NCBI GenBank assembly: GCA_963575745.1 | Contig: CAUYUJ010020266.1 | Location: forward strand, 96,600-160,599 | From: Prorocentrum cordatum | Taxonomy: Eukaryota > Sar > Dinophyceae > Prorocentrales > Prorocentraceae | Length of the DNA stretch: 64,000 bases | Direction: 5' to 3' | Shown here: positions 7,641 through 43,446 of the stretch, piece after piece | Position numbering within the stretch: position 1 is the stretch's first letter | How the letters are laid out: every line of letters begins with the position of its first letter | Program-made: the position numbers and the translations under genes | The notes under the pieces: generated by a model | Databases searched by the model: none | Told to the model about the DNA's origin: nothing | What the model saw: the letters and a program-made list of their open reading frames with translations, nothing else

Positions 7641-7679
7641 TAGGCCTCCCAGATGGGGTCTGAGTAGATGGAATCAGAG

Positions 7680-7805
7680 GATCGCGCAGCATCGCTGATG
7701 CATCGGCGATGCGGCTCGATGTGGAGCCTAATGGTCTCCACTCCGCCGTCGCCGATGCATCGCCAACGTCGCCGGTGCATCGCCGATTTATCGGCGATAC
7801 GGCGG
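7680..7805. repeat. Imperfect palindromic segment
   Basis: GATGCATCGGCGATG near 7696 is answered by CGCCGATGCATCG near 7750 and by CATCGCCGATTTATCGGCGAT near 7780. The region can fold into alternative hairpins. Its function is unknown. Confidence 0.6.
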
Positions 7806-11554: not shown

Positions 11555-14500
11555 GGGGCGGGTTGTACATCAGGAACAACTGAACGAAAGTTAGAACCTG
11601 GGGGAAACGTGAACATGGAGAGGAGGAGGAGGTCGAAAAACAGGCCGTAAAAGTCGAACATCGGGACGAAGTCGCTCGGATGCCCTATGCTCTCTTCAAC
11701 ACCTCGCAATCCTCTGCCATCTGCGCCATGGCAACGAGCCCCATGCGGCAGACGGCCACCTGGAGCTCCGCTCTGCGGGCCGCGGACGCGTGAGCCGGGA
11801 AAGTGATCCATCCCGTCTTCAGCGTCGCCCGCGGCTGGCGTGCCCACCAGCCAGGTGGGATGTGGTACGCGTCGTTCAGCTCCTGCCGGAAACCCGCCAG
11901 GGCGGCGCACTCGGCCACGTAGTGGCGCGCACTCGGTCGATGGGGACCCCCGCAGGACGGGCAGGCCGCCGTGAGATCGGGCCTGGTGGTGCTCCATCTT
12001 CTCGTCGGGCTGTGTGTCGCTCCGCAGCGAAAAATCTTCAAGTGGATCCTGTCCTCCAGGGTCAGCGAGTCCCGGAAAGTGGACCACGCTCGTGCCGAGG
12101 AGGCTTCAAGGCCGATCTGGTCGACCCCCTCCGAGTCGTGGCGAGACGCGGATGCGTGGGCAAGAGTTCTCGCCCGGCATACTTGGCGAAGGAGGTGCGG
12201 CACCATCTCTTCGTCGCTCCAGAAGATGTGTCTGCGCCCGCACAATCGGCGAACTCGGACATCAGGCTCGTCCACCGAGCGTCGGAACTGCACTCCGCGC
12301 TCTGGGTCGTACTGCAGGAACTCGAAACCTATGGCATCGAAGAACGACGTGACATTCATCTCGAGGAATGTACTCCAGCGGAGGTCCCAGGTGGTGATGC
12401 GATCGATGGCCGTGAGCACCGCGCTGAAGATGGGGTGCAGGTCGATATTCGAGGCCCAGAAACGGCCTCGGCACCACCAAGTGCACCTCGTCGAAAGCAC
12501 CGCTGACATCGCTGCTGGGACGACGTCGGGTGGTGGCAGAGAGAAAACCGGGGAACACCAAGTCCACAACGGTTTAGCGTAGGCCCGGACCGCCGTGGCC
12601 CTGGCTTCGCTGCCTCCCGGGAGGCCTCGGATGGCGTGCAAGCACTTGCGGAGCTTGGTCCAGCCCCCGGCAGGCGTAATCGGCTCATCCGGAGCATCAG
12701 GGACAGCGAGGATGCCGATGTGCTCGATCTGCGTCCTGTCCCCTCGCTTCCAGACCTGGCGCTTCCCGACGTTCTCGATAGCGCCCGTGCCTGAGTCGAA
12801 GGCGTTGGTGGCCTGCACGTCCGACTCCATCTGCGGGACGGAGTCGAAGACGGCGGACCTGTCGTCCATGAAAAGGAACTTGGTGCCGTTGATCTCCCAG
12901 GGGGAAAGTACGTGGCACAAGACCTTCGGCGCCGTGCTGTCCCCTTGAGCGAGGCTGCGCGTAGGCCAGAGTGTCTCACCGGCCAGCTCTCCCGCCACCT
13001 GGCACCTCCGAGGGCCCCGCCAGGCAGCGTTAGTCACCGCCCGCACTCGGCGTGGCGTCTGGGCGTTGCGGAGCGCCGCGTCTGCCACCGCATGCGGCAC
13101 GTTGTCGTAGCACTTGGACAGGTCACGCTCCGGTCCGCACGAGCCGTGCTGGCAGGCGTGCAGCCACAAGCAGCAGGCGTGGACCACCGTGGAGCCCGCT
13201 TTGCAGGCGAACTGAGCGTCCTGTGGCGTGGGCAGGCTGGGCTCGCAAGCTGTGAGCCAGGCCCTGAGGAGCACGGAGCCCACCCCTATAGGCCGGGACT
13301 GCGTCGGGTCTTTCTTTGGCACCCCAACAACCCGCCAGGCGAAGAGGAGGTGCTGGAGCTCGGTGGTGGGCCTCTCGACCAGGAGGGTCTCGCAGGTGTC
13401 CCGCCATAGCGTGTAGAGTTCGAAAAGCAAGAACTCGAAATGCTCGGAGATCAGCTTGAGCTCGCTGGAGTGCCAACCGTCATAGCCTGCGCTGCCTTTG
13501 GCCTTGCGCACGGCGACCCGGAAGTCGGCGTGAGAGGGGCGCCACTCCTCGTCGTAGGCGTTGGCGGTCTTCGGCAAGGGCTCGTGCGCCTCCGCGGCGT
13601 ACTGCTCCCACCTGGCCGCGCACCTCTGCTCGTCGTAGTTGGGGTCTGACGGGACCCACGCTCGCTTCCACTCCTCCGTCATGTCCTCGGCATTGAAACT
13701 GGGACACTCGGAGGGCCCATGAACCTCTGCAGTGGCTGCCCTCCACGTGTCCGTCGTGAAGTGCTGGAAGAGGCGGCGCCACTCGGAGCGGCGATCTCTG
13801 AGCAGGTCCCGCTGGATCGCGGAGATGGCCTTCGAGATCTTGCCGTGTGCCTCTGCGTGCGTCGGCCGGCCTTTCGGGCCAGCTGTCAACCGGCCCCGGA
13901 GGGCCGAGTCCACGTACTGGCGCAGAAGAGGGCCAGCGATGAGCTCGTCTGCATGGTCGCGGAGCTGGTGGGCAACGCGGCGACCAAGGCGTTTCAGGCG
14001 TACCAGCTCCATCGGCTCGGCGGGCCGCGCCGCCGGAGTCGTGGCCACCCTGCGCGAGGTAGGGAGGGATCCCTTGGGGCGTTCAGCGGCCCCGTCTTGT
14101 AATACCCACCCCTGGTGGGCAGCTGCCGTCAGTGTCCCCTCGGCCCGGGCGTGCCATCGCTCCCACCTCTCCGGGAGAGGGGCGGCGGCTGGGCAGGCCG
14201 GCAGGGTGGCATCCATGTGGCTCTGCAGCTCCTCGGTGTCGCTCGCCAGCAGGAGGGTGCCCGGGTCGAGCGTGAACCGTGTAGTGCGGCGCATTCGCGT
14301 AGCCTGCGCCGACGGGGCGGCGACCTGCGCAGAGAAGATCACCAGCCCGTGATGAGGAATGAGCGGGAGGAAGGCGACGCTCTCAAGCCTCAGCTCGATG
14401 CCGGCCCCCACGGCTCGCGTAGGAGAGGTCCCTGCTAGGGTCGTAGGCGTAGTTGCGGCACGCAGGACGGCGTGCGTCGGCAGCGCGTTGACGTAAGAGG

Positions 14501-14840
14501 GGCGCCAGTTCAGGTCGCCAGCGATGCACCGCGGCACCGGCGGAGTACCACGAGCCACGGTGGATGTGAAATTGACGACTTCCTCCATCCAGGGGCCGGA
14601 GCGCACTGCAGCGGGCCCATGCCCAGATGTAGAAACTCCCAGCTTGGTACGAATAGCAACTTCACGATGGGAAGCGGCTCGATGAACAGCAACACGCCCA
14701 AGAGAAGGGCGCCAGAAAATGGCAGTGCCGCCCTGCTGAACGGCACGCTTGGCGTTCCTGGGTGGAGGCGTGGAGCACGCCACGCGCCAACCATACTTGA
14801 GCGCGAGCCTGGTGACCCGCGCGGGCTTGGCGGAGGCTAG
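11555..14840 (-). mobile_element. 5'-truncated LINE with perfect target-site duplication
   Basis: A 3286-bp insertion bounded by identical 15-bp repeats. Its single minus-strand frame is still open when it meets the 5' junction at 14840, inside the endonuclease domain. The copy is therefore 5'-truncated, as is common for target-primed reverse transcription. About 130 bp of 3' untranslated sequence follow the stop, and there is no poly(A). An intact frame of more than 1000 codons and a perfect duplication imply a recent insertion. It landed between the arms of an older inverted repeat. Confidence 0.92.
11685..14840 (-). CDS. LINE polyprotein: partial endonuclease, reverse transcriptase, zinc knuckle
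   Basis: This frame encodes the C-terminal part of an endonuclease/exonuclease/phosphatase-type nuclease: AGDLNWRP near 14515, then PHHGLVIFSA near 14335, the usual place of the catalytic His. A reverse transcriptase follows, with motif A ERDLSKCYDNV (about 13098-13133), motif B LAQGDSTAPK (about 12925-12960) and motif C FMDDRS (about 12846-12880). Both metal-binding Asp of motif C are present. Near the C terminus is a CPSCGG..H....C zinc knuckle (about 11908-11972). No RNase H domain is visible. The protein would nick the target and copy the LINE RNA. There is no true start: the frame runs open through the truncation point, and the first alternative start is a GTG at 14783. No stop or frameshift interrupts it, unlike the other LINEs here. 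Confidence 0.9.
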   Translation of the reverse strand, partial: LASAKPARVTRLALKYGWRVACSTPPPRNAKRAVQQGGTAIFWRPSLGRVAVHRAASHREVAIRTKLGVSTSGHGPAAVRSGPWMEEVVNFTSTVARGTPPVPRCIAGDLNWRPSYVNALPTHAVLRAATTPTTLAGTSPTRAVGAGIELRLESVAFLPLIPHHGLVIFSAQVAAPSAQATRMRRTTRFTLDPGTLLLASDTEELQSHMDATLPACPAAAPLPERWERWHARAEGTLTAAAHQGWVLQDGAAERPKGSLPTSRRVATTPAARPAEPMELVRLKRLGRRVAHQLRDHADELIAGPLLRQYVDSALRGRLTAGPKGRPTHAEAHGKISKAISAIQRDLLRDRRSEWRRLFQHFTTDTWRAATAEVHGPSECPSFNAEDMTEEWKRAWVPSDPNYDEQRCAARWEQYAAEAHEPLPKTANAYDEEWRPSHADFRVAVRKAKGSAGYDGWHSSELKLISEHFEFLLFELYTLWRDTCETLLVERPTTELQHLLFAWRVVGVPKKDPTQSRPIGVGSVLLRAWLTACEPSLPTPQDAQFACKAGSTVVHACCLWLHACQHGSCGPERDLSKCYDNVPHAVADAALRNAQTPRRVRAVTNAAWRGPRRCQVAGELAGETLWPTRSLAQGDSTAPKVLCHVLSPWEINGTKFLFMDDRSAVFDSVPQMESDVQATNAFDSGTGAIENVGKRQVWKRGDRTQIEHIGILAVPDAPDEPITPAGGWTKLRKCLHAIRGLPGGSEARATAVRAYAKPLWTWCSPVFSLPPPDVVPAAMSAVLSTRCTWWCRGRFWASNIDLHPIFSAVLTAIDRITTWDLRWSTFLEMNVTSFFDAIGFEFLQYDPERGVQFRRSVDEPDVRVRRLCGRRHIFWSDEEMVPHLLRQVCRARTLAHASASRHDSEGVDQIGLEASSARAWSTFRDSLTLEDRIHLKIFRCGATHSPTRRWSTTRPDLTAACPSCGGPHRPSARHYVAECAALAGFRQELNDAYHIPPGWWARQPRATLKTGWITFPAHASAARRAELQVAVCRMGLVAMAQMAEDCEVLKRA

Positions 14841-14855
14841 CTGGTAATCGATGAG
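14841..14855 (+). repeat. Target-site duplication, copy at the LINE 5' side
   Basis: An exact repeat of the 15 bases at 11540-11554. Confidence 0.92.
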
Positions 14856-14935
14856 ATAGCGCCGATTTAGCGTCGATTAGCGTCGTTTCAGCGTCGGCTA
14901 GCGTCGACTCGCGTCGATTAGCGTGGGTACGCAAG
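14854..14935 (+). repeat. Short tandem repeat, unit about 10-11 bp
   Basis: GCGTCGATTA and variants (GCGTCGTTTCA, GCGTCGGCTA, GCGTCGACTC) repeat about seven times next to the LINE target site. Confidence 0.85.
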
Positions 14936-15995: not shown

Positions 15996-16206
15996 AATCA
16001 CGTCGGATCTCTGGGTCTGCCGCCCCCCGGCGCAGCCCACCGCCCTCCCCTTCGCCCGGGCCAGTCTCGGGCTGCTCCCGGGCGCGCTCGCGCGCCTGCT
16101 CGGCCCCCCCTCGCCTCCTGCCCGCGGGGGCCTGCCCGCCTTGCCTGGTTCCTCCTGGCCCCTGGCCCTCGTCTCTCCCGCCCTCCTTCCGCCTCCCCTT
16201 TTGTCA

Positions 16207-16372
16207 GGAGTGAAAAAAACACGCAGACACAACAAAATCGTCGACTCCCAGGAAAAGATGCGAAAAGCTGGGAGACTGGGGGGAAGACAAACGCCCAGGA
16301 ACTATTGGAAAACAGGGGGAGTCCTGTTATTTGTGTGTGTATTTCTCTGTGTGTCCCAGGGCCCCTTCACCT
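16207..16372 (+). repeat. Dispersed ~160-bp repeat, copy 2 of 2
   Basis: The counterpart of 6893-7062. It starts AACACGCAGACACAACAAAA and ends TTTCTCTGTGTGTCCCAGGG, with imperfectly complementary ends. Confidence 0.65.
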
Positions 16373-16549
16373 CGTCCCATTTGCACGGCCCCTGGAGCGG
16401 CGTCCGCCGCGCAGCCGAACGAGGCGCCGGGACGCGGCGGTGGCGGAGGTCACGGCCGCAGCGGCCGAGGCAGGCCAGGCACGAGGATGGCCAGGCCTGG
16501 AGGAGGGGGAAGGGAGGGAGGAAGGCACCGCGCATCCGAGGGAGGATGC

Positions 16550-16657
16550 CCTCCTCCGCCTCCTCCCCCTCCCCCTCCCCCTCCCCCTCCTCCCTCCTCC
16601 TCCTCCTCCTCCTCCTCCTCCTCCTCCTCCTCCTCCTCCTCCTCCTCCGTCGCCTCC
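16550..16657 (+). repeat. (TCC)n microsatellite directly before the DinoSL of a LINE
   Basis: About 100 bp of TCC repeats with CCCCTCC variants. It ends at the first base of the spliced-leader sequence. A second (TCC)n tract in the same sense closes the element at 22995-23057. Confidence 0.95.
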
Positions 16658-16679
16658 TCCGTAGCCATTTTGGCTCAAG
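16658..16679 (+). other. Dinoflagellate spliced leader (DinoSL) sequence, perfect match
   Basis: All 22 positions match the published DinoSL (core CCGTAGCCATTTTGGCTC). It stands 138 bases before the LINE ORF1 start. Genomic DinoSL is expected where a trans-spliced mRNA was reverse-transcribed and inserted, so this marks the 5' end of a LINE copied from a mature mRNA. It is not flanked by the intron sequence expected of an SL RNA gene; a (TCC)n tract lies directly upstream. Confidence 0.92.
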
Positions 16680-16817
16680 ACTGATGCTTTTGCGGGCTGA
16701 GCCCGCATTGGCCAAACTGGATACCGCTAATCCGCGGCAGTCTTCATCCTTCACGGAGGTCCCTTCCTCAGTCCGCCCTGGGGATAGGGGTTCGCTAGCC
16801 TCCATTCCTGTCCTGCC

Positions 16818-18243
16818 ATGGCGTGGCGTCGGAGTGCTCCGTGGCGCGTCGCTGGTGGCGAAGGGAAAGGCTCTTGGGTATGGCAGCCTGAGAGTGCTGG
16901 CGGTCCTCAGTCGGGGCCCCGTGGCAAGAAGAAGGTCAAGTCTAAGGACAACTCGTACAAGGTCTGTTCTCTCTGCACGCACTGGGAGTACTCTCGTCAT
17001 GGTCACCGCGCCTGCAGTCTGTGCGGTGGTCAATACCTTGATGGTCCTCGTCCTGGGCATGGCGATCAGGCTCATCAGGGCGGTCCTGGTGGAGTCGGAC
17101 TCGGTGCTGCTGCTGCCCCTGGCGCTGCTGCTGTCCCGATGCCGCCCCACCTCGTGCAGGAGTTGGAGCGCTGGGCTGTTCACTACCCTGCCCTTGCAGG
17201 GGTGGCTCGCGATGCCGCCCCGCCTGCGCCTCCCGAGATCCGTCTGTTCACGGCTGGTGAGCTGGATCAGATGGCCGCGCTCGAGCAGACGCGGCTTGTT
17301 CGGGAAGTGGAGGCCGCATCCAAAAACGAGAGGTTGGCTGCCCAGGAGGTGCAATGGAGGTTGGACCGTTTCAACCGTGCAAAGGCTACGATGGAGGAGA
17401 TGCAGAATAATCATCTCATGGCGGAGCAGAACCTCGAGGTGGCTCGCCGTGAGACGCGGGAAGCCGACTCCAGGAAGTTGGCTTTCAGTGTCGAGATGTT
17501 CAAGCAGAGCAAGATTGAGGAGCAGCGGCGCGAGGCAGAGCGCCAGGCTCAGGCGGCCGCGGACGCAGGCCGCCTCGACGCTTCAGGCGGGGCTCGCGCC
17601 CCCCCCGCCTGGCGGCGACGGCGGCCCCCAGCCTGCCGTCGGCCCTGGCGCTGCAGGCGGGGTTTGCGCCCCCCCGCCTGGCGCGGCCGTGGCTGGCTGC
17701 GCGGCCGCTGCTGATGCTGATGTCGATATGGAAGATGGTGCAGACATTATCCCTTGGTTACGTGGCCGTCTCGTCGACTTCGTGTATGTGGAGTCCCGCC
17801 TGCATGAGTTCGATGATCCCATGCTCGAGCTACTTGTCCGCTACTCTGGCATCCAGCTTGAGACGTGGCAACAGTATCGACTCCACCTGCAGCGTATGCG
17901 AGACGCACAGCCCGACGAGGTGTCTGAGTTGGGCAGTGAAGTTGGAGACGAACTCGATCAAGTTGAACGCGACCAGTTCCGTGAGCTCAAGAAGAGAGCA
18001 GGCGAGGCTGGCTTGGACGCGGCCGCAGCCAAGGAGTACACCGATCTGCTGCAGAAGAGGCTCATGGCTAAGTCTGTCAAGCGTGCGCGTACTTCCCAGG
18101 CCGTCGCCTGCGACATGTACCGCGCGTTCTGCACCGTCGCGGCCACCCAGATGGACAAACAGGGAGGTGTTGGAGGCGCTGCTGCTGCGGGTGCGGCTGC
18201 TGCTTCTGAGGCCGCCCAGTCTTCTGTGCCGCCGCGTGTTTAG
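16818..18243 (+). pseudogene. LINE ORF1: zinc finger and coiled-coil RNA-binding-type protein, one frameshift
   Basis: The ATG at 16818 is the first good start after the DinoSL. Residues 45-75 hold a four-cysteine finger (CSLC..., then CSLCGG), the same plan as ORF1 of the minus-strand relative. A charged segment rich in Glu, Arg, Ala and Gln follows at about residues 145-250 and should form a coiled coil. After the C8 run at 17599-17606 the frame shifts and continues through an Ala/Pro/Gly stretch into an acidic domain (ADVDMEDGADIIPWLRG) that ends at the TAG at 18241-18243. ORF1 proteins of LINEs usually bind the element RNA; that role is inferred. The homopolymer indel could be a sequencing error. 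Long in-frame extensions upstream of 16818 lie in the microsatellite and are not counted. Confidence 0.75.
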
Positions 18244-18244
18244 C

Positions 18245-19597
18245 AGTGCTCCTCCGCCCCATGGGCGGCTGCAGCCCGACCAAGGAGAGGTCAAGTCTTT
18301 GATCTCTCCTGCTGTTGCAAAGCATGTGCATTTCAAGTTTGCGAATATAACTCAGTGGTCGAAGCTCACTCAGGACTTTCTGGCAGCTAAGGTTTCTGAG
18401 GTTGATGGAATATTCATGGCTGAGCACCATGTCAGAGGGCCTGAATGTTTTCGGGCCAAGAAGGATTGCCGCCACATGAAGTGGTCACCCTACTTTCAGG
18501 ATGCTCTTGACTCGCCTGGAGGGGGAACTCACGGAGGGGTTGCTGCTGTCGCCCAGCCACGTCTCTGCTTTCGCAAGTTTCTTGTCCAAGCGCGAGGGGC
18601 TAAGCAAGTGGGTGCAGGAGAATGTTGGTTCTTTCTCGAATTGCGTTTGAAGGCGTGTCCGGTAGCTGTTGGAGTCATCTACCTTGTGCCATCCATTGGA
18701 GTTTCTGGAGTGAACTCTTGTCGTCTGCGTGCGGTTGCTGAATTCGTTCGGGGTCTGGCTATCCCATGGTTCCTGATGGGCGATTTTAACATGTCGGTTG
18801 ATTTCCTGGAAGATGCTGGAGTCTTGGAACTGATGTCCGCTCGAACCCGGGTCCCTGGCAATGTTGAGTTTACCTGTTCGGTTGGGGAAACGATGATTGA
18901 TTACGTCGTGTGCTCTCACCTGTTGTTCCCTTACCTCAAAGTGTCTGCCGACCTCCTGTCCCCATTCAAGACGCACGCGTGCTTGGGCGTGATCTTGGAC
19001 CTCGAAGCCATGGTGGAGCCCCAGTGTATTCGCGTGAAGCCCCTGGAGGTTCCTGAGGCCCTGGGCCCCGATAGTCGCTGGCTCACCTATATGTCGGCGG
19101 CTCAAAGCCTTGGGGAACCTTGCAAAAGCATCCTGGAGGCTCCCTTGGTCATGCCTGAGGACCTTTATGAGGCTATGTCTGAGCACTCGAAGGAGTTCTT
19201 GTCTAGGAGTCTTGGGATGCAGTATCTTATTTGGTCTCGTGCCATGGAGATGCGAGCTCTTTCACGCGCGTGCGCTCTTGTTTCTGATCCACACAGATAT
19301 CTTGGTCGCGGTTCCATGCTGAAGCGAAAGGACTGTTCTCTGATGACTCGCGGTGTGCAGGCGCAGAGTTTTCGGAATCCCGACTTGTCCTTTTGGTCTC
19401 TCGTTTGGAGCCGCCTGTGTGAGTTATGGCGGCTCACATGCAAGTCACCTTTCTCTGATGCTGCTCGCCAGCATCGCACTGTTCTCTCTGCCTTGGCGGC
19501 CGACGTCTTTGCTCACATCGAGCCCCTCGTCAGCCCAGAAGACGCTGAGAGTTGGAAGGAGATGCTTGAGAACCCCCCACGATCGGAAGGTACGTAG
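18245..19597 (+). pseudogene. LINE endonuclease domain (EEP family), amber stop at the end
   Basis: The frame holds an endonuclease/exonuclease/phosphatase-type nuclease. MAEHHVRG near 18416 gives the catalytic Glu, LMGDFNMSVD near 18775 the Asp and Asn, and SPFKTHACLGVI near 18960 the terminal His region. Such enzymes nick the insertion site and so prime reverse transcription. The frame begins right after the ORF1 stop with no early ATG, so the start is uncertain. It ends at a TAG at 19595-19597, but the same frame stays open beyond it for about 90 codons that look like the linker to the RT. The TAG therefore seems to cut one longer polyprotein. Confidence 0.8.
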
Positions 19598-21417
19598 CGA
19601 AACCTCGTCGACGCTGCAGGTGATGTTTGTGCGAAATCATGGTCCCTAGCTCATGCCAAGACTAGGAGCAGCATGAAAACCTGGTTGACGTCGTCGTTAC
19701 CTCGGGGAGCTAGTCCTGTTCACCGTTACCTGAAAGCTGAGGAGAAGGTTTGGGTTGAATGCTTGGAGACTCCTGGAGACATCGTGAACGCCCCAAAGGA
19801 TATGATGAGATATCGTGAAGAGAAGTGCCGTCTTGGTGGACTCCTTCCGCACAGCAGCTGTCTTGTTTGAATGCGGGCATGAGCGAGCTTAGGTCACAAG
19901 CGTTAGTCGCTCTGGAAGATACCCCCCTGCTCGAAGTTTCTGATGTTGCTCGTGCGTGTACTTGCTTCAGGGCGAAGACCGCTCTCGGTGTTGATATGTG
20001 GTCGCCTCGTGCTCTTTTGGGCGCTCCAGTGGATTCTCTCGAAGTGTTCACTGGCATCCTGCGTTCGGTGGAAGAGAATTTGTGCTTTCCCCCTCAGTGC
20101 TATGTCTGTCTCATGGCGATGCTGCCGAAGTCTATATGTGATGAGCGGGCAATCGTGAAGTGCCCCAGCATCTACATGATCTTTTGTAAGGCCAGAGGCT
20201 TTGACATCGATGATTGGAACAAGGCCCACATTGACTTCTGGGACTCTGCGGTCAAGGGCCCATCGGCCTTGAAGGCTGCCCTCTTTCGTGAGTTGGCCCA
20301 TGAAGTGGCCCGTGCCTGTGGGTTCCACTCCTTTGCCCTCCACTGGGACATCGAGAAGTTCTTTGACTCCGTGAGCCCCAGCAAGCTCCTGCACTTGGCG
20401 GTGAATCAAGATTACCCCGCCCGCCTGTTGTACATGGGGCTCCTCATTCACACGTCTCCGAGGCTTTTGGAAGTGTCTGGGAGCCTTTCGAAGGTGTTGG
20501 CCTCTGGTGAGTCCATCTTGGCGGGTTGTTGTCAGAGTATGCCCTGGGTCAAGTGCATCCTTTACGGGGTCCTGGAGAAGGCTCATAATAGGATCCCTCG
20601 AGGACCTGGAGACCACCCACACGTTCGTGTCCCAATTAGGTCGTATGTTGACGACAGCACACAGTACCTGCAAGGCTCTGTCGCTTTCATCTGCCGCTAC
20701 CTGCCCCAGGCCGCTGCCGATTTTCAGCATGATATCTCTGAGCTGGGGTGTGCCGTCAGCTCTAAGTCGCTTGCAGTCGCCTCGTCCGTGGAGCTGCAGC
20801 GGCTCCTGCAGGACGGGTTCAGGAGATATGAAGTCTCCATTTCTTTTGCGGATGGAGTGAAGGATCTTGGATCTGTCACTACTGCCAATAAAAGGCGATC
20901 CACCTGGAAGGTCCAGCAGAGACGCTCGCTCGCTTTCCGTCGTGCCCGGAAGTTGAGTTACCTTGCCAAGCTTTGTGGGGCTTCTCGAACGGTTTTCAAG
21001 CCAGGCATTTTGGCAGTGGGTACCTGGGGCCATGCTCTCCTTGGGCTTCCTGCGGGTGCTATTGGGCAGTTCAGATCCTCGGCTGCAGCGTGCTCTGGAT
21101 TTTGGTCGTCTGGGGCTTGTGTTAGCACTGTGTTGCGAGTGTTGCATGATATTAAAGGCGATCCTGTTTATCGGCTCCGTGTTGAACAACTTACCTTGAT
21201 GTCGGAGGTTTGGGTTTCTTTTCCTGAAGGTCTTCGGTCTGGAGTTCGGAGAGTCTGGGAGGCCCTGCACGACACGATCGGTAAGTCGCAGGAGTTGAGT
21301 CGGTGGCGTCTCGTTCGAGGTCCCATTGCAGCCCTGTATGCTACTGTTCTGGATCTAGGATGGGAACCACGACGTGTTGATGAGTGGCGTGCAAGTGTTG
21401 GTGTCACTCTTAGGTAG
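19598..21417 (+). pseudogene. LINE reverse transcriptase domain, frameshifted, amber stop at the end
   Basis: After the TAG the linker continues (SLAHAKTRSS, then MMRYREEKC) until a frameshift at about 19830-19868 moves to the RT frame. RT motif A is HWDIEKFFDSV (20335-20370), motif B ILAGCCQSM (20515-20540) and motif C SYVDDST (20641-20661), with both catalytic Asp kept. Motif B lacks the QG dipeptide of most LINEs; the minus-strand relative has ILAGCTHAT, so this is a lineage feature. The frame ends at a TAG at 21415-21417, yet about 30 further codons stay open and lead toward the RNase H. The product would copy LINE RNA at the nicked target. Confidence 0.8.
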
Positions 21418-22948
21418 ACTGATGCAGATTTCAGATATCATCTTACCTCGGCTGTCCGTGAGTCTTGCTCGTCCATTGTCTGGGCCAAGGCCGCTCAGCA
21501 CTTCTGTGGGCAAGGCACTTCTGTGGGCAGGTGCTTCGCGCCAAGCACAAGCAGTTGCTCGACGACGGCGACTTTAAGGGCGCCGCCCTTTTGATTACGA
21601 TTGCTGTCGGAGGTGCTTGGCCCGAGTCGCGTCTGCAGGACTGTGGATATTTGACCTCAGGCCGTTGTTTCCGATGTGGTGACGCGCGGGAAACACCTCT
21701 GCACCGTTGTTGGGGATGTCCGAGTAACCAGTACTTGACTGATCCGAGTATTGTGAATAGTGAATATTTGGTTCATGATGCCCTTGCTGCTGACCCTCAT
21801 AGTGCTTTCTTCACTCGTGGGGTACCCTGCCTTGATGCATCCTGTGGTCACCTACCTCCACCCTCTGCTTGTACCTGGACATGGGGCACCCTGAGGGCTC
21901 AGCGTCGGGTTCCTGGAGGTGTGTGGGGCCTTGATGGCTCTGGAGGGGTTCACGCCAGAGATAAGAGGTTGAGGCGATGCGGTTGGGCTATAGTCAGTCT
22001 TGGGGTTCCAGATGGTCTCTCGTTGCAGCTGGATACCATTATGTGCGGTGGTCTTCCTACCTTGGAGCAGTCTAGTCCCCGAGCTGAACTTTATGCATTT
22101 ATCATGGTTCTGAGTCATACTGTGGGTGATATATTGTGCTACTCTGATTATTTGCCCTTGGCGAGAGGGCTGAGGCAGCCACGAGCTCAGATCGTGGCCA
22201 GCAGCTCGATGCTCGATCTTTGGGTTCGGATCTGGTCGGCCTTAGACGATCGAGGTCCTGGTTCAGTCGACGTCCTGTGGACCAAGAGCCACTCGACGAC
22301 CCACCAGAGGGCCCAATTCGCCACTGGGGAGGAGGAGTTTTTCCTTAATTGGTGTGCTGATTTCTTTGCGGGGTGGGCCACTGAACGTGTGGCCCCCTCC
22401 CCCGAACAGGTTGATGTGACGGCGTTTGTTGATCGTGTCACGTCTCACACGCTTGACCGCCTTCTGGCGGTGCATCGGGAGGTTGTGGAGCAGAACCCCC
22501 GCCGTGTTGCTGATCGGCTCGGCCGTCCCCCCCTCGGCCCCCTCCTATCCCTGTCTTCCAGGTCCGCCTTAGGAGAATGAGGAGTGCGGGTCATGAGTCG
22601 ACCTTGAAGGGTACGGCTCTCCGCTGCCAGATCTGTGAGCGTCGATTCAGATTGAAGGGCCGCGTCCAGGACTTTTGTCCTGGTCCCTGTCTCGGCCCCG
22701 CTCACCTTTCCTCTGATCCGCTCGCGCACCCCTTGTATCCTTCGTGCGCGGGCAATCATAGGTTGAATGTGCTCCGCGGTGTGCTGTATTGCGAGCGTTG
22801 TGGTGCCCATGCTAGTGGGCGCAATGTGCAAAGCCTGGCCAAACCCTGTAAGACTGATCGTCCCCCCACGAAGGCTGGGAGGGAGGTCCTGTCCAGGTTG
22901 GCTCGTGGTCTTCCCCCCAAGAGTGGCGGCAAGTTCCCCCAGGCTTGA
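21418..22948 (+). pseudogene. LINE RNase H domain and two-finger C-terminal tail, two frameshifts
   Basis: Just downstream of the TAG a 17-bp tandem duplication (unit CACTTCTGTGGGCAAGG, near 21498-21530) shifts the frame; removing one unit restores it. The RNase H domain then shows WGLDGSGG (about 21932), PRAELYAF (about 22078), CYSDYLPL (about 22138), a KSH (about 22288) and NWCADFFA (about 22350), so the acidic catalytic set is complete. A last shift in a C-rich run near 22537-22545 leads into a tail ending at 22948 with CQIC, CPGPC and CERCG motifs. The relative at 36.9-37.4 kb has the same two CxxC pairs. RNase H would remove the RNA strand during integration. Confidence 0.78.
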
Positions 22949-22994: not shown

Positions 22995-23057
22995 CATCAT
23001 CATCCTCCGTCTCCTCCTCCTCCTCCTCCTCCTCCTCCTCCTCCTCCTCCTCCTCCT
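22995..23057 (+). repeat. (CAT)(TCC)n tract at the 3' end of the LINE
   Basis: CATCATCATCATCC passes into pure TCC repeats in the same sense as the tract before the DinoSL at 16550-16657. Confidence 0.9.
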
Positions 23058-23261
23058 CTCCCCGTCCTCTCTCCTCTGCCCGTCGTCCTCGGGCGCTCCT
23101 CTGCCTCCGGCGGCCGGAGTGGGCGCGAAGGGGTGGCCCGAGCCCCGCTCTCCGCGGCGCGCGGACTGGCCCAGGAACCAGCGCGACGCCCAGCGGGTCA
23201 CCCGCGCGGCGCAGGTGCACTGCTCGGGGGTCTGCTTCGGCCACGCGCAGAGAGGTGTAGG

Positions 23262-36369: not shown

Positions 36370-36676
36370 ACGTTCGGGGGGGAGGAGTGGCAGGAAGAGG
36401 GGGAGGAGGGGGAGGAGGAGGAGGAGGAGGAGGAGGAGGAGGAGGAGGAGGAGGAGGAGGAGGAGGAGGAGGAGGAGGAGGAGGAGGAGGAGGAGGAGAG
36501 GAGGAGGAGGGAGGAGGGAGGAGGGAGGAGGGAGGAGGAGGAGGAGGAGGAGGAGGGAGGAGGAGGAGGGAGGGAGGGAGGGAGGGAGGGGAGGGAGGGA
36601 GGGAGGGAGGAGGAGGCGGAGGAGGCGGAGGAGGCGGAGGAGGCGGAGGAGGCGGAGGAGGAGGAGGAGGAGGACG
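36370..36676 (+). repeat. (GGA)n microsatellite at the 3' side of the minus-strand LINE
   Basis: About 290 bp of GGA with GGGA and GGC variants. In the sense of the LINE next to it, this is (TCC)n, the same motif as at its 5' side (43441-43685). Confidence 0.95.
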
Positions 36677-36871: not shown

Positions 36872-37352
36872 TTATACAGTGTGGGGGGGGTGCTGAGAAG
36901 GGCCCAGACAGCAACCTCCAAGCTTCGAATGCCCCGCACGCCCAGCATTGAGCTGGTACGACCCACACAACGTGCATACCATAGCACCAAGATTCGAGAG
37001 AATTCGGTGACCATCTAACTCTACGATGTCATCGGAGGCAGGCAGCTGAGCCCCCGACAGACCAGGTACCACAGGATCATCGGGCAGGCTGAGCTCCTGC
37101 GCCAAACCTAGCGCAACGTCGACCGCCTCGCTCCTGTATGGCCGTGCACGCTGCAATACGACGTAATTGCGGGCCTGGAGCTTCTGTTGCTCCGTGGGCT
37201 CGCACTTAGCATAATTACTGGTCCCCGCAACGAGTTTCAACAAACTGGCTGGGGTCCGAGCAGTGGCCAAACAGATCTTGCACTGCCAGGCACCAGGGCT
37301 ACGGACGACCACCTCGTGCACACGCAATCCTACCTGCTGTACAGGAATAAGG
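36872..37352 (-). pseudogene. LINE C-terminal zinc-finger tail, out of frame with the RT
   Basis: After the C6 run (37351-37356, G on the plus strand) the correct reading moves to another frame: PLIPVQQVGLRVHEVVVRSP, then CKICLATART...C and CTLCGSY...CC before the stop at 36872. The two CxxC pairs match those ending the LINE at 22.6-22.95 kb. One base in the homopolymer explains the break, so it may be a real mutation or a sequencing error. A role in binding nucleic acid is probable by analogy with other LINE tails. Confidence 0.72.
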
Positions 37353-40300
37353 GGGGCCACCTAACTTGAGCCTCTCGGGTCTACTGCTGGTGGAGTCCCT
37401 GGTGATGAGCTTGGCTGCCGCCCAGGAGAAGAACTTTGCATTCAACTTCTCTTGACTCAGCCTTGCTTCGAACATTTTGACCGTCGATGTGTGCACTGCA
37501 TGCATGTTGGCCCCCTCTCTAGCGAAATAGTCCGCCCACATGTTTCCGAGCAGAAATTCGAATGGGAGGGTGTCGAAGTGTTCATCCAGGTAACTCTCGA
37601 TCGTGATGTGCGCGGGCGTCCAGCAAGCTTTGGGCCGACGCTTGTCGTCAGCAGCATGAAAGATGTGCCTCCAGATGTCCGCGTATGTCGAATTCGCATT
37701 TGCCTGGTCGTGGTGCCAGGAATTCACTTCAGCTGCCAGGCTCTGGAGATCTGTCACCAGTAGATCCACAGCTGGTAAAAGCCTGAGTGCCATGAGGAAA
37801 GCCATTCGCTCCGATCTCCCGACCGTCTGGATCGGACCCGCAAGGGGCCCATAAGCAGCACGAACAGGCAGCCCGTTGTCCCCCATGACGACGAACGACC
37901 ACCCACATCGACGAATCTCAGGCCACGCTGGGGCCAGCCCCGAACCATCGGAGAAAACCATTGAGCTCCAGGAACTTCTGTCTGACTCCCAGTCCCCCCA
38001 ACAGACGTACTGCAAGTTGGACTCCACATATGGTGGGATGAGAGGGCTCACAGGTATGCCTACAGCCGTGGCAAAACAGTCCCAGTCGGGCTCTCCAAGG
38101 GCCTTTTGTCCGAGCTCCCTTAGCATATCATATGTGTACTGCATATCGGTGTTCCAGTCGAGATCGGGATCCTCAGGCAAGTCGTCATAAAAACTAGGAC
38201 AGCAAAAGAACTCATGTCCAATAGTCGATTGCTCCGCTGCGCAGTAGATGCAAGCAGGGGAGATCTGGTACCCTTTGGCAGCCAGTCTGGAACGTGACCA
38301 AATAGAGTCAGACCACAGTGCTCGCAGCGCGCCTGCATAGCGTGGGTTCGAAACCACTGCCTTCTTAGCTCCAACACATCTTCTCATTGCTCTCATCCAT
38401 ATAACCTCATCCCCATAGCATACATCCTTGTGATGTGTAAGTATGCGCATGCCTTGCCAGCGCTCGATGCCTTGCCTGACCAACTCCAGCACATCCTTGG
38501 GGCAGAGCTGAAGGAGGCCAAACGTGTGACCTAGGTCGCTGTAGATCCCCGTGGCGGAATACATACCCCATCCTATTCTCCTCAAAGTCATCCATACAAC
38601 GGCAATGGGGCCCCTAGCAGAGGTCCAAGTAGCCTTCTTCTTGAGCCCCTCATCAACCTTCATCCAAGCCCGCTGTAGTCCCCCAAGGCAAACTCTGTTG
38701 TCCCAAACGAAGCTGCAGTAGGCCTTCAGGGGGTCCATAGTGGCATTGTATATTGGGTCGTACTTGGCGTCAGCCTGCGTAGCCAGATATACAGTGAGAG
38801 AGGAAACTGCCGTCGAGCGGCCACATACCATGCCAGCAACAGAGCGTAAACGAGCAAGCTCTTGGTCACTGACTCCTGAGACAGTCGCTCCATGCGCAGC
38901 AGCAGGAAGGAGTCCTGTTCTCCAGATCGCGGTGGCTCTGTTGCCCGCCGCCTTTTGGAGCATAATTAGCCTTGGGGGCCTGTCCTGCAAGCCCTTCATC
39001 CTAGCCTTAGCTTGTTTTCTCACAGGAACTGGCCCACTAAGTTCATGCCCCAGATTTCGGACCCACTTCTTGCCTTTGAGGTTGATCCTGGAGGCCAACT
39101 TGCGGAACCCATGGTGCCCCTTCCTAGTGTTGGAGACCCAGCCCCATTTCTTGACCTGCAGCAGGAGCCCCAACTTGGCCGAATCCTTGACAAAGCTCTG
39201 GATCCCCAAGAACAATTCAGCCGAAGAAGTCCCCGACGGCCCAACCCATTGGAACGTGCTGTCATCCACGAGCGCTCTCGGGGTCACGTTGGGGGCTATC
39301 TGGTGCACCTTCATGAGGGCCCTGTAGGTGAGGATGGTGAGGAGGGTGGTGGCGTGGGTGCAGCCCGCGAGGATGCCCTGGTACACCGCCACCTGCTTGC
39401 CCCAACATCCAAACGCTTTAATTACTCTTGGCTGGGAATGCGAATTGATTAGCATCCATAACAAACGTAGCGGGAACCCCAGGCACCTGGCTTCATCTAC
39501 CAATGCAGGGAACAGCACCGTCTCGAAACATTTCCACATATCCAGAAAAACCGTAACTGAACTCTCCCCCAGAGATGCAGCAATCTCCGCCTCCAGGTTG
39601 TGTGCAAATGCAGAGAAACTGGAAAAGTGTCCCCGCCTATTGCCCCAAATGAACGGGCTCCCATGCTGGACAACCCATGTTCTTGAAATCGGGCGCCTTG
39701 CACGCGCCCGCAAACGTACTGAGCTCTCTACTAAGGTGATCAGCCGCGTGCCTCCATCAGGCTTGGCAAGCCTGACCATCTCATTGACAACTCTCTGAGT
39801 CGGCCAGTACAGCATCCGCTCGCATGTGTGGTACAGTGTGCAGAGCGCCAACAAGCCAGCGTCAGAGAGGAAATAGAAGGCACGAGGATGCAGCCTCGTG
39901 GGCCCAGTGGCCGTCGTCCACTTGAACGTGAGGGCCGCCTTGGACAGGTCTTCAGGCCGAAGAGGAAGAATGTTATCCCATGAGTGCGCATCACTAGGCA
40001 GAGCTGGCTCACCCTGACCGTGACAAGACCATACCTCATGCCAGACATCCATTTCCCTGTCGGCCATCTGGTACGGCTGCATTCTGTCGGTGTGCGCCAC
40101 TGCTGCCTCAAGCGCCCTGACCTTGGAAGTGCGATGCGCAGGGCCTGCACCTTTCTTGAATGCCGTGTCGATCCAAGACTTCCAGCTAGCCTCCACCTTC
40201 TTCTTATGCACTTGGTGGAGCTCATCTGCATGCTCGACTATACGGCAGATCTGCTGCTCGAAGTCGTCCCTTCCAAGCAAGGCTATGCCATCTAGGAAGA

Positions 40301-41189
40301 AGTTCTGAGTCTCCTCATCCAGGTGATTCATCATGTGGTTCTGTTGCCCCACTATCTTAAGCGAGAAGCGATCTGTGTCCACCAGCGAGCGAGCCAATCT
40401 ACCAATGGGATTCTGACTCGCTGATTCACGCCGCTTCCTGGATTGCGTTCTGCCAGGATTCCTTGGATCCTCTCGTGGCATCGAGGCTGACGCAGTAGCC
40501 GCGGTCGCCGAAGCAGTACCCGTATGCCCTCTACCAGGGGCAGAGACAGCACAGGCCGAGGGCGCAGAACGCGGCGCCATCGACCCTCCAGCGATTCCAC
40601 CGCACGGGGTCACTGAGCTGAGAGCCGCCTGAGCCCTTACGGGCATACACGGATCAGCATAGGACACGCACCGCGGGGCAGTCTCGTCCTTCATGGGGCG
40701 AAGGCAGCATGACCCACTCGTAGATGCCCTCTGTGATCTCGAAAAGACAGGTGCTTGCCTGTCATATATGTCACCTGCTACACGTTGTTTGCCAGGTATA
40801 GGTGCACCATCGCTCGCCTTCGAACTGTTCCTTCTGCTGGTGACCTTCGTCCAATTCTCCTCTGCTTCATCTCTCATGGGATCTGCGGCAGCAGGTGCCG
40901 TGGAAGGCTGTCGGCTGGACCAGGGCGAACTGTAGTCAGGAAGGTGAAACTCACCCGCCCGCCTATCATCACGTACAGCTTCCTGCGCCAACTTGATCCA
41001 GAAGGCTCGCACTCTCATAACATGTTTCGCCCATCTGGCCGCAGCCTGCCAGGCTAAGGCTGTCGGCCCAAGAGCTCCCGCCTCCCTCTTGGGGGGCCAG
41101 TGTGCTTCAACAAACTTGGTGTCTCTTGGGCCCGCTCTGCCCCTGAATGGAGCCGCATCATCGTCGACCACGTCGTATCTGTTGAGAAT
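37299..41189 (-). CDS. LINE reverse transcriptase and RNase H polyprotein
   Basis: A frame of about 1290 codons. An N-terminal linker of some 250 residues rich in Ser, Ala and Arg precedes the RT. RT motif A is VFLDMWKCFETV (about 39510-39555), motif B QGILAGCTHATTLL (about 39334-39380) and motif C ALVDDSTFQW (about 39243-39275), with both Asp kept. RNase H shows VFSDGSG (about 37940), SERMAFLMAL (about 37800), LVTDLQSL (about 37750), CWTPAHIT (about 37610) and NMWADYFA (about 37540), a complete acidic set. The frame has no ATG near its start. It is in phase with the upstream endonuclease and separated only by the TAG at 41190-41192, with a GTG at 41171. Normal translation probably began in the endonuclease or further upstream. 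It would reverse-transcribe the LINE RNA and remove the RNA strand. Confidence 0.88.
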   Translation of the reverse strand: MLNRYDVVDDDAAPFRGRAGPRDTKFVEAHWPPKREAGALGPTALAWQAAARWAKHVMRVRAFWIKLAQEAVRDDRRAGEFHLPDYSSPWSSRQPSTAPAAADPMRDEAEENWTKVTSRRNSSKASDGAPIPGKQRVAGDIYDRQAPVFSRSQRASTSGSCCLRPMKDETAPRCVSYADPCMPVRAQAALSSVTPCGGIAGGSMAPRSAPSACAVSAPGRGHTGTASATAATASASMPREDPRNPGRTQSRKRRESASQNPIGRLARSLVDTDRFSLKIVGQQNHMMNHLDEETQNFFLDGIALLGRDDFEQQICRIVEHADELHQVHKKKVEASWKSWIDTAFKKGAGPAHRTSKVRALEAAVAHTDRMQPYQMADREMDVWHEVWSCHGQGEPALPSDAHSWDNILPLRPEDLSKAALTFKWTTATGPTRLHPRAFYFLSDAGLLALCTLYHTCERMLYWPTQRVVNEMVRLAKPDGGTRLITLVESSVRLRARARRPISRTWVVQHGSPFIWGNRRGHFSSFSAFAHNLEAEIAASLGESSVTVFLDMWKCFETVLFPALVDEARCLGFPLRLLWMLINSHSQPRVIKAFGCWGKQVAVYQGILAGCTHATTLLTILTYRALMKVHQIAPNVTPRALVDDSTFQWVGPSGTSSAELFLGIQSFVKDSAKLGLLLQVKKWGWVSNTRKGHHGFRKLASRINLKGKKWVRNLGHELSGPVPVRKQAKARMKGLQDRPPRLIMLQKAAGNRATAIWRTGLLPAAAHGATVSGVSDQELARLRSVAGMVCGRSTAVSSLTVYLATQADAKYDPIYNATMDPLKAYCSFVWDNRVCLGGLQRAWMKVDEGLKKKATWTSARGPIAVVWMTLRRIGWGMYSATGIYSDLGHTFGLLQLCPKDVLELVRQGIERWQGMRILTHHKDVCYGDEVIWMRAMRRCVGAKKAVVSNPRYAGALRALWSDSIWSRSRLAAKGYQISPACIYCAAEQSTIGHEFFCCPSFYDDLPEDPDLDWNTDMQYTYDMLRELGQKALGEPDWDCFATAVGIPVSPLIPPYVESNLQYVCWGDWESDRSSWSSMVFSDGSGLAPAWPEIRRCGWSFVVMGDNGLPVRAAYGPLAGPIQTVGRSERMAFLMALRLLPAVDLLVTDLQSLAAEVNSWHHDQANANSTYADIWRHIFHAADDKRRPKACWTPAHITIESYLDEHFDTLPFEFLLGNMWADYFAREGANMHAVHTSTVKMFEARLSQEKLNAKFFSWAAAKLITRDSTSSRPERLKLGGPPYSCTAGRIACARGGRP

Positions 41190-42107
41190 CTAAAATTCCA
41201 CTCCAGTCATGACTGCGTCCCAAGCCATCCTTAGCGTGTCGTCGCCATATGCACGTAGAATGGTGTCCATCACTTGATCCCAATTCATAGGAAACCGCGA
41301 ACAACCTTGCTTGGGTAGCTTTGGCAACTGCTTTGGCTCAACAGGGGCCCTCAACCAGATTTGCTTGGGCACTGCTCGAATCGAAAGCGCCACAGGCGCA
41401 TGCGTGGGTTGCCCTGCAGCAGCCAACACATCTGGTGGCTCAATGAAGGCAGCCAAATTGGAGTGCACCAGGAAGTAATCGTAGATCTTGCCCTCGACGG
41501 AGTTGGTGGTACGACAGGTGACTTGCTCAGGTACCATCATCAACGCATGAGTCTGGGCCACCCACTCCTGTGAACCAATCAAATTCGCACTCATATTAAA
41601 GTCCCCTCCAATGACCCACGGCCGATTGGCCGCGTTGCGGCGGCCCACATACTGCGCCACCTTGTGGAGAATCATAAGGTTGTAGTCGTTCAAGTCTACT
41701 GAGTCCTGCAAGTAGAGGGAGATGACAACCAACCCGCTCTTCGGGCCCCAGTTGACCTGCGCTGCCACAGCACGAGAAGGCACAATCTCAGGGTCCTTGA
41801 GCAGAGGTGGCGCCGTAATCGTGACATAGCTCGGCGTAATCACTGCAACCCCAGGTGGCAGCCCATCAGCTGCCGTGCGCTTGGCCGCCGAGAAAATGCC
41901 GTGGTAGCCCATGCACTTGAGCTTGTACTGCAAGCTAGGCAGCATCAGGCCATCTGACTTATGCTCTTGAACCAGTATCACCGCATCAGTGGCCTGCTTC
42001 GCATAACGTAGCAGAGGGCCAGCTGCATCATAATTGACAGTAACAATCTGCCCCTTGATCTTAGAATCGGAATTCGTCATCTGGACCAGAAAAGTACCCA
42101 TCATCAT
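41190..42107 (-). CDS. LINE endonuclease (EEP family)
   Basis: The start is taken at the ATG at 42107, one of three Met codons in a row, 22 bases after the ORF1 stop; another ATG lies at 42080. VILVQEHKSDG (about 41960) holds the catalytic Glu, GGDFNMSAN (about 41600) the Asp and Asn, and GQPTHAPVALSI (about 41395) the terminal His. The 305-residue protein ends at a TAG (41190-41192), and the same frame continues without another stop into the RT polyprotein. Either this amber codon has split an endonuclease-RT protein, or it is read through. The enzyme would nick the target site, perhaps (TCC)n DNA. Confidence 0.87.
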   Translation of the reverse strand: MMMGTFLVQMTNSDSKIKGQIVTVNYDAAGPLLRYAKQATDAVILVQEHKSDGLMLPSLQYKLKCMGYHGIFSAAKRTAADGLPPGVAVITPSYVTITAPPLLKDPEIVPSRAVAAQVNWGPKSGLVVISLYLQDSVDLNDYNLMILHKVAQYVGRRNAANRPWVIGGDFNMSANLIGSQEWVAQTHALMMVPEQVTCRTTNSVEGKIYDYFLVHSNLAAFIEPPDVLAAAGQPTHAPVALSIRAVPKQIWLRAPVEPKQLPKLPKQGCSRFPMNWDQVMDTILRAYGDDTLRMAWDAVMTGVEF

Positions 42108-42129
42108 GGCGTGGATTAGCCTCCTAGGC

Positions 42130-43266
42130 CTAGTAGGCCTGGAAGCCTGGCCCCTTCCTCTGCTTGGCATGCTGCTCCAGCTTGCAGAGCCGGTTGGCTG
42201 CATCCCGCATCTCCTCCAAGGTCGTGGGCACCTCCTGGCCCGCCTCAGCCAGGTAAGGCCGCAGGACCTCTTCGGTTGCTTCTTTGATAGGCACCAGAGG
42301 AACATCATCATCAGCAATTGACTCATTGTCCAGCAGCTCAGGAATCGCCTCATGTGTAGGCGCACCCGCAGGTCGCAACCGAGCATTCGTGATGATTTGC
42401 GGCAGTGCTTGAGCCACGCCGTGCGCGATGGCGTCAGTCCTGTCGCCAGCTCCGAGGGCGCGCAAGACCTCGCCCAACTTGGTGGTATCAAGGCCCAGAG
42501 CTTGAACAGGTTGCCCAGACTCCCCGTCATCATTAGGTGCAGGTGGGACATAGCTCTGGCGCGCCAAGTCCGCGTGCTGGGTCTGGAGCTCGAGCAGCTT
42601 GGCCTTCTTGTCCAGCACCTTCTGCTCTGCCTGCGCCAGCACCTCCTGGAGCTCCTTGATGACCGCCTTCTGGTCCTCAACGTCCTTCTCCGCTTTGGTA
42701 ATTTGCTTACCCATAGCTTCAATCTGCTTGCCAACGACGAACATGCGTGAGGCGGCAGGCTTGTGCTTGTTGATCTCTCCCTGGAGCTCGCTGCGCTCTT
42801 TGGTGAGCGCCTCCTTGAGTACGTCCCAGGCTGCGCCCACACCTTTGCAGGCGAGAGCGATCTCCTTGTCCAACTCCAAAATACGTGCTCGAAACTTGCC
42901 TTCATCGAAATCATTTCCCATAGCCTTTGGCTCCGACACATCCATGGCATCAGGCGATGGCACGTTCTTGGCCTGGACTTGCTTCTCCAGCTTGGCGATC
43001 GTCTCCTGCGCCAGGCGCAGCTGCTTGGCCACTTCCCACGGTGCCGAGCCAGCGCTGGTAGCTTTTTTGCCACCTTCCTTGAGACCACCAGCGTGCACGC
43101 TCGGGTCGGTGGTGGACTGCTTGTAGGCCTTGAAGCAACTGCTTTTGGGACGCCTGCACGAGAAGCATGTCGTTCTGTCGGCCTTATTGAAGAAAGGTTC
43201 GCCCGTGCGCTCGTGGATGCAGGTCTTGCACAGCCAAGTCTTGTCGGCGACTGGGCGTGGCACCAT
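42130..43266 (-). CDS. LINE ORF1: zinc-finger, coiled-coil protein
   Basis: 378 residues from the first ATG after the DinoSL. Residues 13-44 form a four-cysteine finger (CKTC, then CFSC, with extra Cys at 44), like that in ORF1 of the 16.7-kb LINE. Residues about 80-230 are a long heptad-rich coiled coil (QETIAKLEKQVQAK, ITKAEKDVEDQKAVIKELQE). The C-terminal part is acidic, with a second helical stretch (LEEMRDAANRLCKLEQHA). The frame is intact. ORF1 proteins of LINEs usually assemble on the element RNA; the finger and coiled coil fit that, but the role here is inferred. Confidence 0.85.
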   Translation of the reverse strand: MVPRPVADKTWLCKTCIHERTGEPFFNKADRTTCFSCRRPKSSCFKAYKQSTTDPSVHAGGLKEGGKKATSAGSAPWEVAKQLRLAQETIAKLEKQVQAKNVPSPDAMDVSEPKAMGNDFDEGKFRARILELDKEIALACKGVGAAWDVLKEALTKERSELQGEINKHKPAASRMFVVGKQIEAMGKQITKAEKDVEDQKAVIKELQEVLAQAEQKVLDKKAKLLELQTQHADLARQSYVPPAPNDDGESGQPVQALGLDTTKLGEVLRALGAGDRTDAIAHGVAQALPQIITNARLRPAGAPTHEAIPELLDNESIADDDVPLVPIKEATEEVLRPYLAEAGQEVPTTLEEMRDAANRLCKLEQHAKQRKGPGFQAY

Positions 43267-43424
43267 CCTGACCCCTCAACGCACACGAGGAACAAAAGTA
43301 CTGAGAGAGACGCGCCGAGATGGAGCGGACCACCTCGGCGCTCGCCCTGGGGCTGACCAGGGGAAAGACTGCAAACTGGCCGCGGACTAGCGGTATCCAC
43401 TCGTTCCCCTGCGGAACAAAGCAT

Positions 43425-43446
43425 ATTGAGCCAAAATGGCTACTGA
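43425..43446 (-). other. DinoSL sequence at the LINE 5' end, 20 of 22 matches
   Basis: On the minus strand the core GTAGCCATTTTGGCTCAA is exact; mismatches are one C to A near the 5' end and the last G to T. It lies 158 bases before the ORF1 ATG and directly follows (TCC)n, the same layout as at 16658. Confidence 0.88.

Follow-up and report, generated by a model that had tools for sequence, protein, structure and literature searches.

Spliced leaders at the 5' ends of LINEs in the dinoflagellate Prorocentrum cordatum

In the dinoflagellate Prorocentrum cordatum, a LINE (LINE1) begins flush at a complete 22-nt dinoflagellate spliced leader (DinoSL, here SL), and LINE 5' ends of the same build recur in the genome. 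LINE1 probably belongs to a diverse dinoflagellate LINE class in which host SL trans-splicing forms the 5' end of the RNA. What the DNA itself shows is where the 5' end lies and that this boundary recurs, together with the spacing, the repeats on the flanks, tandem relicts and a nearby start codon. The window, i.e. the whole stretch analysed, covers positions 96,600-160,599 of its contig and is 64,000 nucleotides long with a G+C content of 54-66% per 4-kb bin; genome counts refer to an assembly of 4.13 Gb in 21,875 contigs, and the published genome is described with 59.7% G+C, 4.15 Gb and a longest scaffold of 3.56 Mb (PMC10666404). LINE1 comprises the following parts:

16550..16660 (+): (CCT)n microsatellite, 5' side of LINE1 (TRF); its last bases may overlap the TCC of the SL
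16658..16679 (+): complete 22-nt DinoSL, 5' end of LINE1 (exact sequence match)
16684..18243 (+): frame of 520 codons, stop included, that starts at the first ATG, 4 nt behind the SL (ORF list)
16692..16706 (+): GCGGGC/GCCCGC hairpin in the leader (sequence; spacer fold z -3.39 against mononucleotide shuffles)
16719..16737 (+): conserved 19-nt motif GGATACCGCTAATCCGCGG (motif alignment; GGATACCGCTARTCCGCGG has 2,325 exact copies genome-wide)
16818..17714 (+): ORF1, starting at its ATG; its paired CxxC motifs look zinc-finger-like by eye (sequence, ORF list)
17519..19597 (+): frame with an endonuclease-like region similar to that of LINE2 (alignment E 2e-07; without Pfam match)
19819..21417 (+): frame with a reverse-transcriptase (RT) region, 25% identical to the LINE2 RT (alignment E 4e-28; without Pfam match)
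21462..22580 (+): frame resembling the LINE2 C-terminal region, RNase-H-like by eye (alignment E 9e-13)
23003..23076 (+): (TCC)n microsatellite, 3' side of LINE1 (TRF)

A pattern search of the 64-kb window located CCGTAGCCATTTTGGCTCAAG exactly at 16659-16679 (+), and the T at 16658 completes the 22-nt leader, so that all the SL positions claimed in a preliminary description of this DNA are present at 16658-16679. In the LINE1 copy this T could equally stem from the (CCT)n array (TRF 16550-16660); elsewhere it does not derive from the repeat, a T standing at -1 in six of seven GGA-flanked loci and in 26 of the 28 sampled SL loci. A chance match is next to impossible: none is expected in the window, 100 shuffles scanned with up to three mismatches permitted gave zero CCGTAGCCATTTTGGCTCAAG matches, and the genome holds 14,218 exact SL copies and 0 of the reversed pattern. 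Inspection by eye showed no SL-RNA-gene sequence downstream of the window SL, as had been stated, and the ATG of ORF1 does lie 138 nt after the SL, at 16818. The preliminary description had overlooked the earlier ATG at 16684, the 3' microsatellite at 23003-23076, which matches the 5' one and places the same trinucleotide repeat on both flanks of LINE1, and a second, minus-strand LINE (LINE2) of the same layout. The coding regions of LINE1 (ORF1, endonuclease-like, RT and C-terminal) are spread over several frames, and comparison of its RT with solved structures gave one weak, unrelated-looking match (E 0.047). The parts of LINE2 are:

43425..43445 (-): SL with 2 mismatches, 5' end of LINE2, with an ATG directly after it at 43424-43422 (pattern search)
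43380..43398 (-): 19-nt motif, the same as in LINE1 (motif search)
42130..43275 (-): LINE2 ORF1 frame (ORF list; 90% identity over 379 aa to the frame of locus L054)
37299..43439 (-): SL-ATG frame covering endonuclease and RT, interrupted by a single in-frame stop (RVT_1 and zf-RVT below the curated Pfam cut-off)
36392..36674 (-): (CTC)n-rich tract, 3' side of LINE2 (limits by eye)

The order in LINE2 is thus (CTC)n, SL with 2 mismatches, 19-nt motif, ORF1, endonuclease-RT and (CTC)n, a layout shared with LINE1 though the two RTs are only 25% identical; LINE2 ORF2 had zero matches in the protein database at E 0.001. The trypanosomatid elements SLACS, CZAR and CRE1 are LINEs that insert into SL-RNA genes, and the likeness to them is that a LINE is tied to SL sequence. 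Site-specific insertion of this kind would account for a LINE adjoining an SL but is highly improbable here, since the flanks are simple repeats and the SL sits on the element side at a set spacing, as the element's own 5' end. We rejected it for LINE1 and LINE2 because both have a microsatellite on each side.

Recurrence was assessed in two samples. The first (SL-first) consisted of the first 28 listed of the 14,218 exact SLs, a non-random draw from three contigs only. Among its 20 loci with 8.4 kb downstream, 15 carry a LINE endonuclease or RT on the SL strand (L009-L011, L013-L015, L017-L019, L021-L024, L027 and L028); neither was found within this distance on the SL strand of L012, L016, L020, L025 and L026. 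RVT_1 scored above the Pfam cut-off in the relatives L009, L011, L017 and L028, which together with the RT alignment between LINE1 and LINE2 (E 4e-28) identifies the RT domain of a LINE, and Exo_endo_phos scored above it in L009, L011 and L028, placing an apurinic-type endonuclease upstream of the RT in these relatives; the endonuclease of LINE1 and LINE2 themselves is assigned solely through their mutual alignment (E 2e-07). Among 16 relatives of one LINE RT, three are named P. cordatum. Locus L019 contains a single frame of ~2,785 codons (607-8964, +) that is open from the SL almost as far as the fetched piece extends, with endonuclease, RT and RNase-H-like regions.

The second sample (motif-first) was made up of the first 30 listed of the 2,325 exact copies of the 19-nt motif, which had been picked after it was sighted in the window LINEs and two SL loci; two of its members also belong to the SL-first set, where L029 is numbered L001 and L030 is numbered L007. 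The preliminary description had suggested aligning the 5' ends of other copies, and in this sample 28 of the 30 LINE 5' ends begin, at set spacings, with an SL that is either perfect (17) or mismatched at one (8), two (1) or three (2) positions. Of the remaining two, L034 has a decayed SL in place (7 mismatches), and a deletion cuts into the SL of L050. The distance from the start of the SL to the motif is 47 nt at 22 loci, 46 nt at one, 59-60 nt at five and 62 nt at one (L043, with a relict), and the T at -1 is present at 24 of the 30. Conserved non-SL sequence reaching upstream of the SL, named beforehand as an observation that would speak against an SL boundary, was not seen as such: BLAST among the upstream 500-nt pieces of different loci gave 21 matches, and the one upstream repeat traced among them turns up in either orientation, and its distance from the SL varies. 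Template jumping, in which the LINE RT, having copied the LINE RNA to its end during integration, would move over to SL RNA or to an SL-capped mRNA and no trans-splicing of the LINE would take place, has a precedent in the chimaeras of mammalian LINEs with other RNAs reported in PMC13174262. We nevertheless hold it to be very unlikely, as 29 of the 30 loci keep the junction at a set spacing from the motif, the junction lies near a start codon, and SL-intron sequence was not seen by eye at the sampled junctions.

Simple repeats at the insertion sites were scored as runs of at least three mixed CTC/TCC/CCT triplets within 45 nt upstream (CTC runs) and as GGA runs. CTC runs precede 14 of the 28 SL-first loci and 4.3% of 8,389 random windows from the same loci, GGA runs seven of the 28 and 3.6% of the random windows, and the remaining seven loci have neither. 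In the motif-first sample a CTC run lies upstream of 27 loci and a GGA run of none of the 30; the elements of the motif class are placed after CTC runs in a single orientation, and other LINEs follow GGA runs (L010, L013, L015 and L018), TA repeats (L011) or CAT repeats (L024). Six of 20 nine-kb loci (L009, L010, L014, L017, L021 and L027) have their next same-strand tract 5.0-6.3 kb further downstream, which matches the length of one element; the distance is shorter, 1.5-3.8 kb, in L013, L015, L020 and L023, and a tract pair was not called in the remaining ten. Simple repeats on both sides, the mark of microsatellite-targeted LINEs, are found for LINE1, LINE2 and these six loci. The (CTC)n flank, we infer, could serve as a polypyrimidine tract beside the AG of the new SL.

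Tandems of an SL followed by CCATTTTGGCTCAAG, a 15-nt relict, number 1,202 exact copies genome-wide, equal to 8.5% of the exact-SL count, with 0 in the reversed control. In published accounts of dinoflagellate genes, use of the AG at SL position 7 as the 3' splice site leaves a relict that starts just past it (PMC12014239, PMC3229502), and a 15-nt relict is therefore what use of this AG predicts. One such tandem, L009, is also a LINE with endonuclease and RT above the Pfam cut-off. The loci L006 and L018 have in common a decayed inner SL and the sequence that follows it (77.6% identity over 107 nt including the outer SL), each has a perfect outer SL, and L018 has an RT. The tandems together with this pair indicate that the SL is re-added, beyond mere inheritance. 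The preliminary description considered an SL carried from copy to copy; the SL appears to be renewed by new trans-splicing. The trans-splicing reading has evidence to face as well, for both L006 and L018 were selected through their perfect SL, exact tandems are few in the motif class (3 among the 100 motif places listed), and conservation extends past the SL into a 5' module, which is also what an inherited promoter or RNA signal would show. Because tandems are rare in the motif class, most copies must arise in a way that yields only one SL; this could be accounted for if the AG at the end of the SL were the splice site, or if a few master loci lacked an SL. On the side of trans-splicing, SL divergence is ~2.7% per copy (16 mismatches in 28 copies), while after nt 70 many pairs are at null identity. 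The perfect SL of LINE1, taken earlier as a sign of recency, dates this insertion only, 17 of the 30 motif-sampled copies being perfect as well. In L018 and L021, flanked by (GGA)n and (CTC)n, respectively, a full-length decayed SL of about 22 nt, instead of the usual 15-nt relict, stands behind the fresh one.

The conserved 5' module brings in a further explanation, namely that the SL and the next ~45 nt form an inherited promoter or RNA module, transcribed from the first base of the SL with no trans-splicing. Nucleotides 1 to ~70 are common to otherwise unalignable elements, with spacers up to 96% identical between elements that cannot be aligned past nt ~70, most motif-class copies have a single SL, and the 77-nt Pr77 5' hallmark of the trypanosomatid L1Tc/ingi LINEs is reported to drive unspliced transcripts, without SL, from its first base (PMC4748587). 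The likeness to that system, as far as that account describes it, is that of LINEs in a trans-splicing protist whose short 5' module is common to several elements; the difference is that Pr77 transcripts lack the SL with which the P. cordatum LINEs start. Another Pr77-type feature, an HDV-like ribozyme, was not found at LINE1: an Rfam scan of 16400-17400 up to E 5 gave neither it nor a relevant RNA family, and the 78 matches in this interval were of microRNA or another type and fell almost entirely in the low-complexity sequence to the left of the SL. We regard such an encoded module as an unlikely explanation of the SL, for the tandems of SL and 15-nt relict and the decayed inner SL shared by L006 and L018 need repeated addition, and the SL mismatches of mutated motif copies look private by eye in a small sample.

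The spacers fold more stably than mononucleotide shuffles (mean z -1.58, n=31, vs 0.08 in 93 control windows), with z above 0 in L033, L039, L042, L049 and L055. The motif can form GGAY/RUCC and CCGC/GCGG helices, the second of which shows paired variation, 75 double-changed copies being divided into 69 T-A, 4 T.G and 2 C.A; in 12 hand-picked rows (4 cells) double changes were present at 3 of 4 pairs, and in a position-blind scan 60 of 2,004 background windows likewise had 8 of 8 pairs. We make no claim of a pseudoknot, because with both stems formed there is no loop to separate them and the 69 T-A copies may be one subfamily by descent. The motif encodes DTASPR in the SL-ATG frame, and the spacer entropies by codon position (1.25, 0.98 and 1.07) do not look like peptide conservation alone. 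The 5' module may thus be conserved as an RNA signal, as a peptide or as both.

The first ATG lies 0-4 nt past the SL in 23 of the 30 motif loci (0 nt in 19, 3 nt in 2 and 4 nt in 2), and the SL may therefore be the entire 5' UTR; seven loci have no ATG within 49 nt of the SL. The 26 rows with an ATG at the SL, two duplicate loci among them, keep the SL-ATG frame open over a median of 500 codons, often as far as the fetched sequence reaches, vs 46 and 11 codons in the other frames; the 11-codon frame is usually ended by a TAG inside the motif. ORF1 is nested within the SL-ATG frame, in the +2 frame. In two close pairs, most substitutions within nt 171-1220 hit third positions in the +2 frame, which implies that the SL-ATG frame is open there without protein conservation; beyond about nt 1,221 the third positions of the SL-ATG frame take over in L005/L017, a shift less clear in LINE2/L054. 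A synonymous-codon permutation was run on 31 elements, some of them related, with an ATG within 39 nt and a second ORF of at least 200 codons, four further elements being excluded for want of a second ORF. It gave 62 stops vs 214.5 expected in the ATG frame, with zero stops in 20 of 31, and 287 vs 409.5 in the third frame, stop-free in 0 of 31; the shortfall in the third frame shows that the null is biased, by an amount insufficient for the ATG frame. LINE1 by itself is not significant (0 stops vs 1.46 expected, P 0.14). The SL-ATG frame spans endonuclease and RT in L011 and L019, and in LINE2 likewise except for one stop. Among 12 elements with a readable endonuclease frame near the 5' part, the endonuclease is in the SL-proximal frame in only five, which is the chance level; damage or frameshifting could be behind the endonuclease frames of the others. 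We take the nested-ORF reading as a lead.

On the trans-splicing reading, the cycle would proceed as follows. The element would be transcribed, probably from outside, and the host would add the capped 22-nt SL, 0-4 nt before the first start codon in most sampled elements. The SL-capped LINE RNA, which may need its SL for translation, would then be translated, and the endonuclease would cut within (CTC)n or another simple repeat. Target-primed reverse transcription would run up to the first base of the leader, so that the new copy starts with the SL. This copy could be transcribed again and re-spliced at the AG of TCCGTAG|CC, which would leave the 15-nt relict behind a fresh SL. The earlier proposal that a trans-spliced LINE RNA was the template for integration gains support from the recurrence and the tandem relicts, from which we infer it at the level of DNA. 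A wider version is possible but doubtful: a LINE class without 5' UTR and promoter of its own would insert into simple repeats, where (CTC)n would supply the polypyrimidine tract for the next round of trans-splicing and the host SL both cap and 22-nt leader; the SL-abutting ATG frame would run over the nested ORF1 towards endonuclease-RT, leaky scanning past the very short leader would determine how much ORF1 is made relative to ORF2, and SL retrogenes would be products of this machinery too.

Such retrogenes are already known. According to the model of Slamovits and Keeling (2008), SL-bearing spliced mRNA is copied back into DNA (PMC12014239, PMC6050394, PMC3229502), and the P. cordatum elements resemble the DinoSL retrogenes of these accounts in the proposed copying of SL-mRNA into DNA, in the SL or relict at the 5' end and in the relict from the AG at SL position 7. 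The retrogenes are host genes, whereas the tagged sequence here is the LINE itself, LINE1, LINE2 and 15 of the 20 SL loci bearing a LINE endonuclease or RT. Non-LTR elements with restriction-like endonucleases that target microsatellites, as described in PMC4640811, also share the insertion into simple repeats and differ from the P. cordatum LINEs, which have a 5' SL and an Exo_endo_phos-type endonuclease. SL relicts near endogenous viral elements have been reported with a suggested involvement of LINEs (PMC10235124). In a full-text literature search, with subscription papers and preprints outside its reach, we did not find LINEs that themselves start with an SL or a LINE class built on the SL described.

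One review, in its treatment of the subject, favours LTR elements as a source of SL-tagged DNA in dinoflagellates (PMC6050394); the present elements offer LINEs in their place. The fresh SL and the relict behind it would serve as a tag for rounds of retrotransposition. The proposed SL-capped LINE RNA contrasts with trypanosomatid L1Tc, which is reported to have unspliced RNA (PMC4748587). If the pattern is general, LINEs will have to be removed before SL counts are used to call retrogenes. Comparison of insertion sites, moreover, makes the enzyme that recycles dinoflagellate mRNAs testable, and the locus L008 is also CTC-flanked: an insert of ~1 kb, with an SL at locus position 1501 and a decayed relict, lies between CTC tracts, had no match to LINE proteins, and contains an ORF with a stretch that is KOW-like by eye. 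This single locus (n=1) hints that other mRNAs reach the same target as the LINEs.

The window holds several further elements. A third LINE-like ORF of 1,063 aa at 11685-14876 (-), with RVT_1 just below the Pfam cut-off, has no SL within 3 mismatches. A ~165-nt interspersed repeat at about 16204-16369 (+) is also present in L015, L017, L019, L038, L039 and L054, in both orientations. A decayed SL (3 mismatches) at 54946-54966 (+) precedes a small cysteine-rich ORF, to ~55590, that has a signal-peptide-like start by eye and is without CTC flank; this pair looks like an SL retrogene. Outside the window, the IMG/VR contig L059 carries two exact DinoSLs at 2746-2766 and 2893-2913 (-), 147 nt apart and adjoined by A+T-rich sequence.
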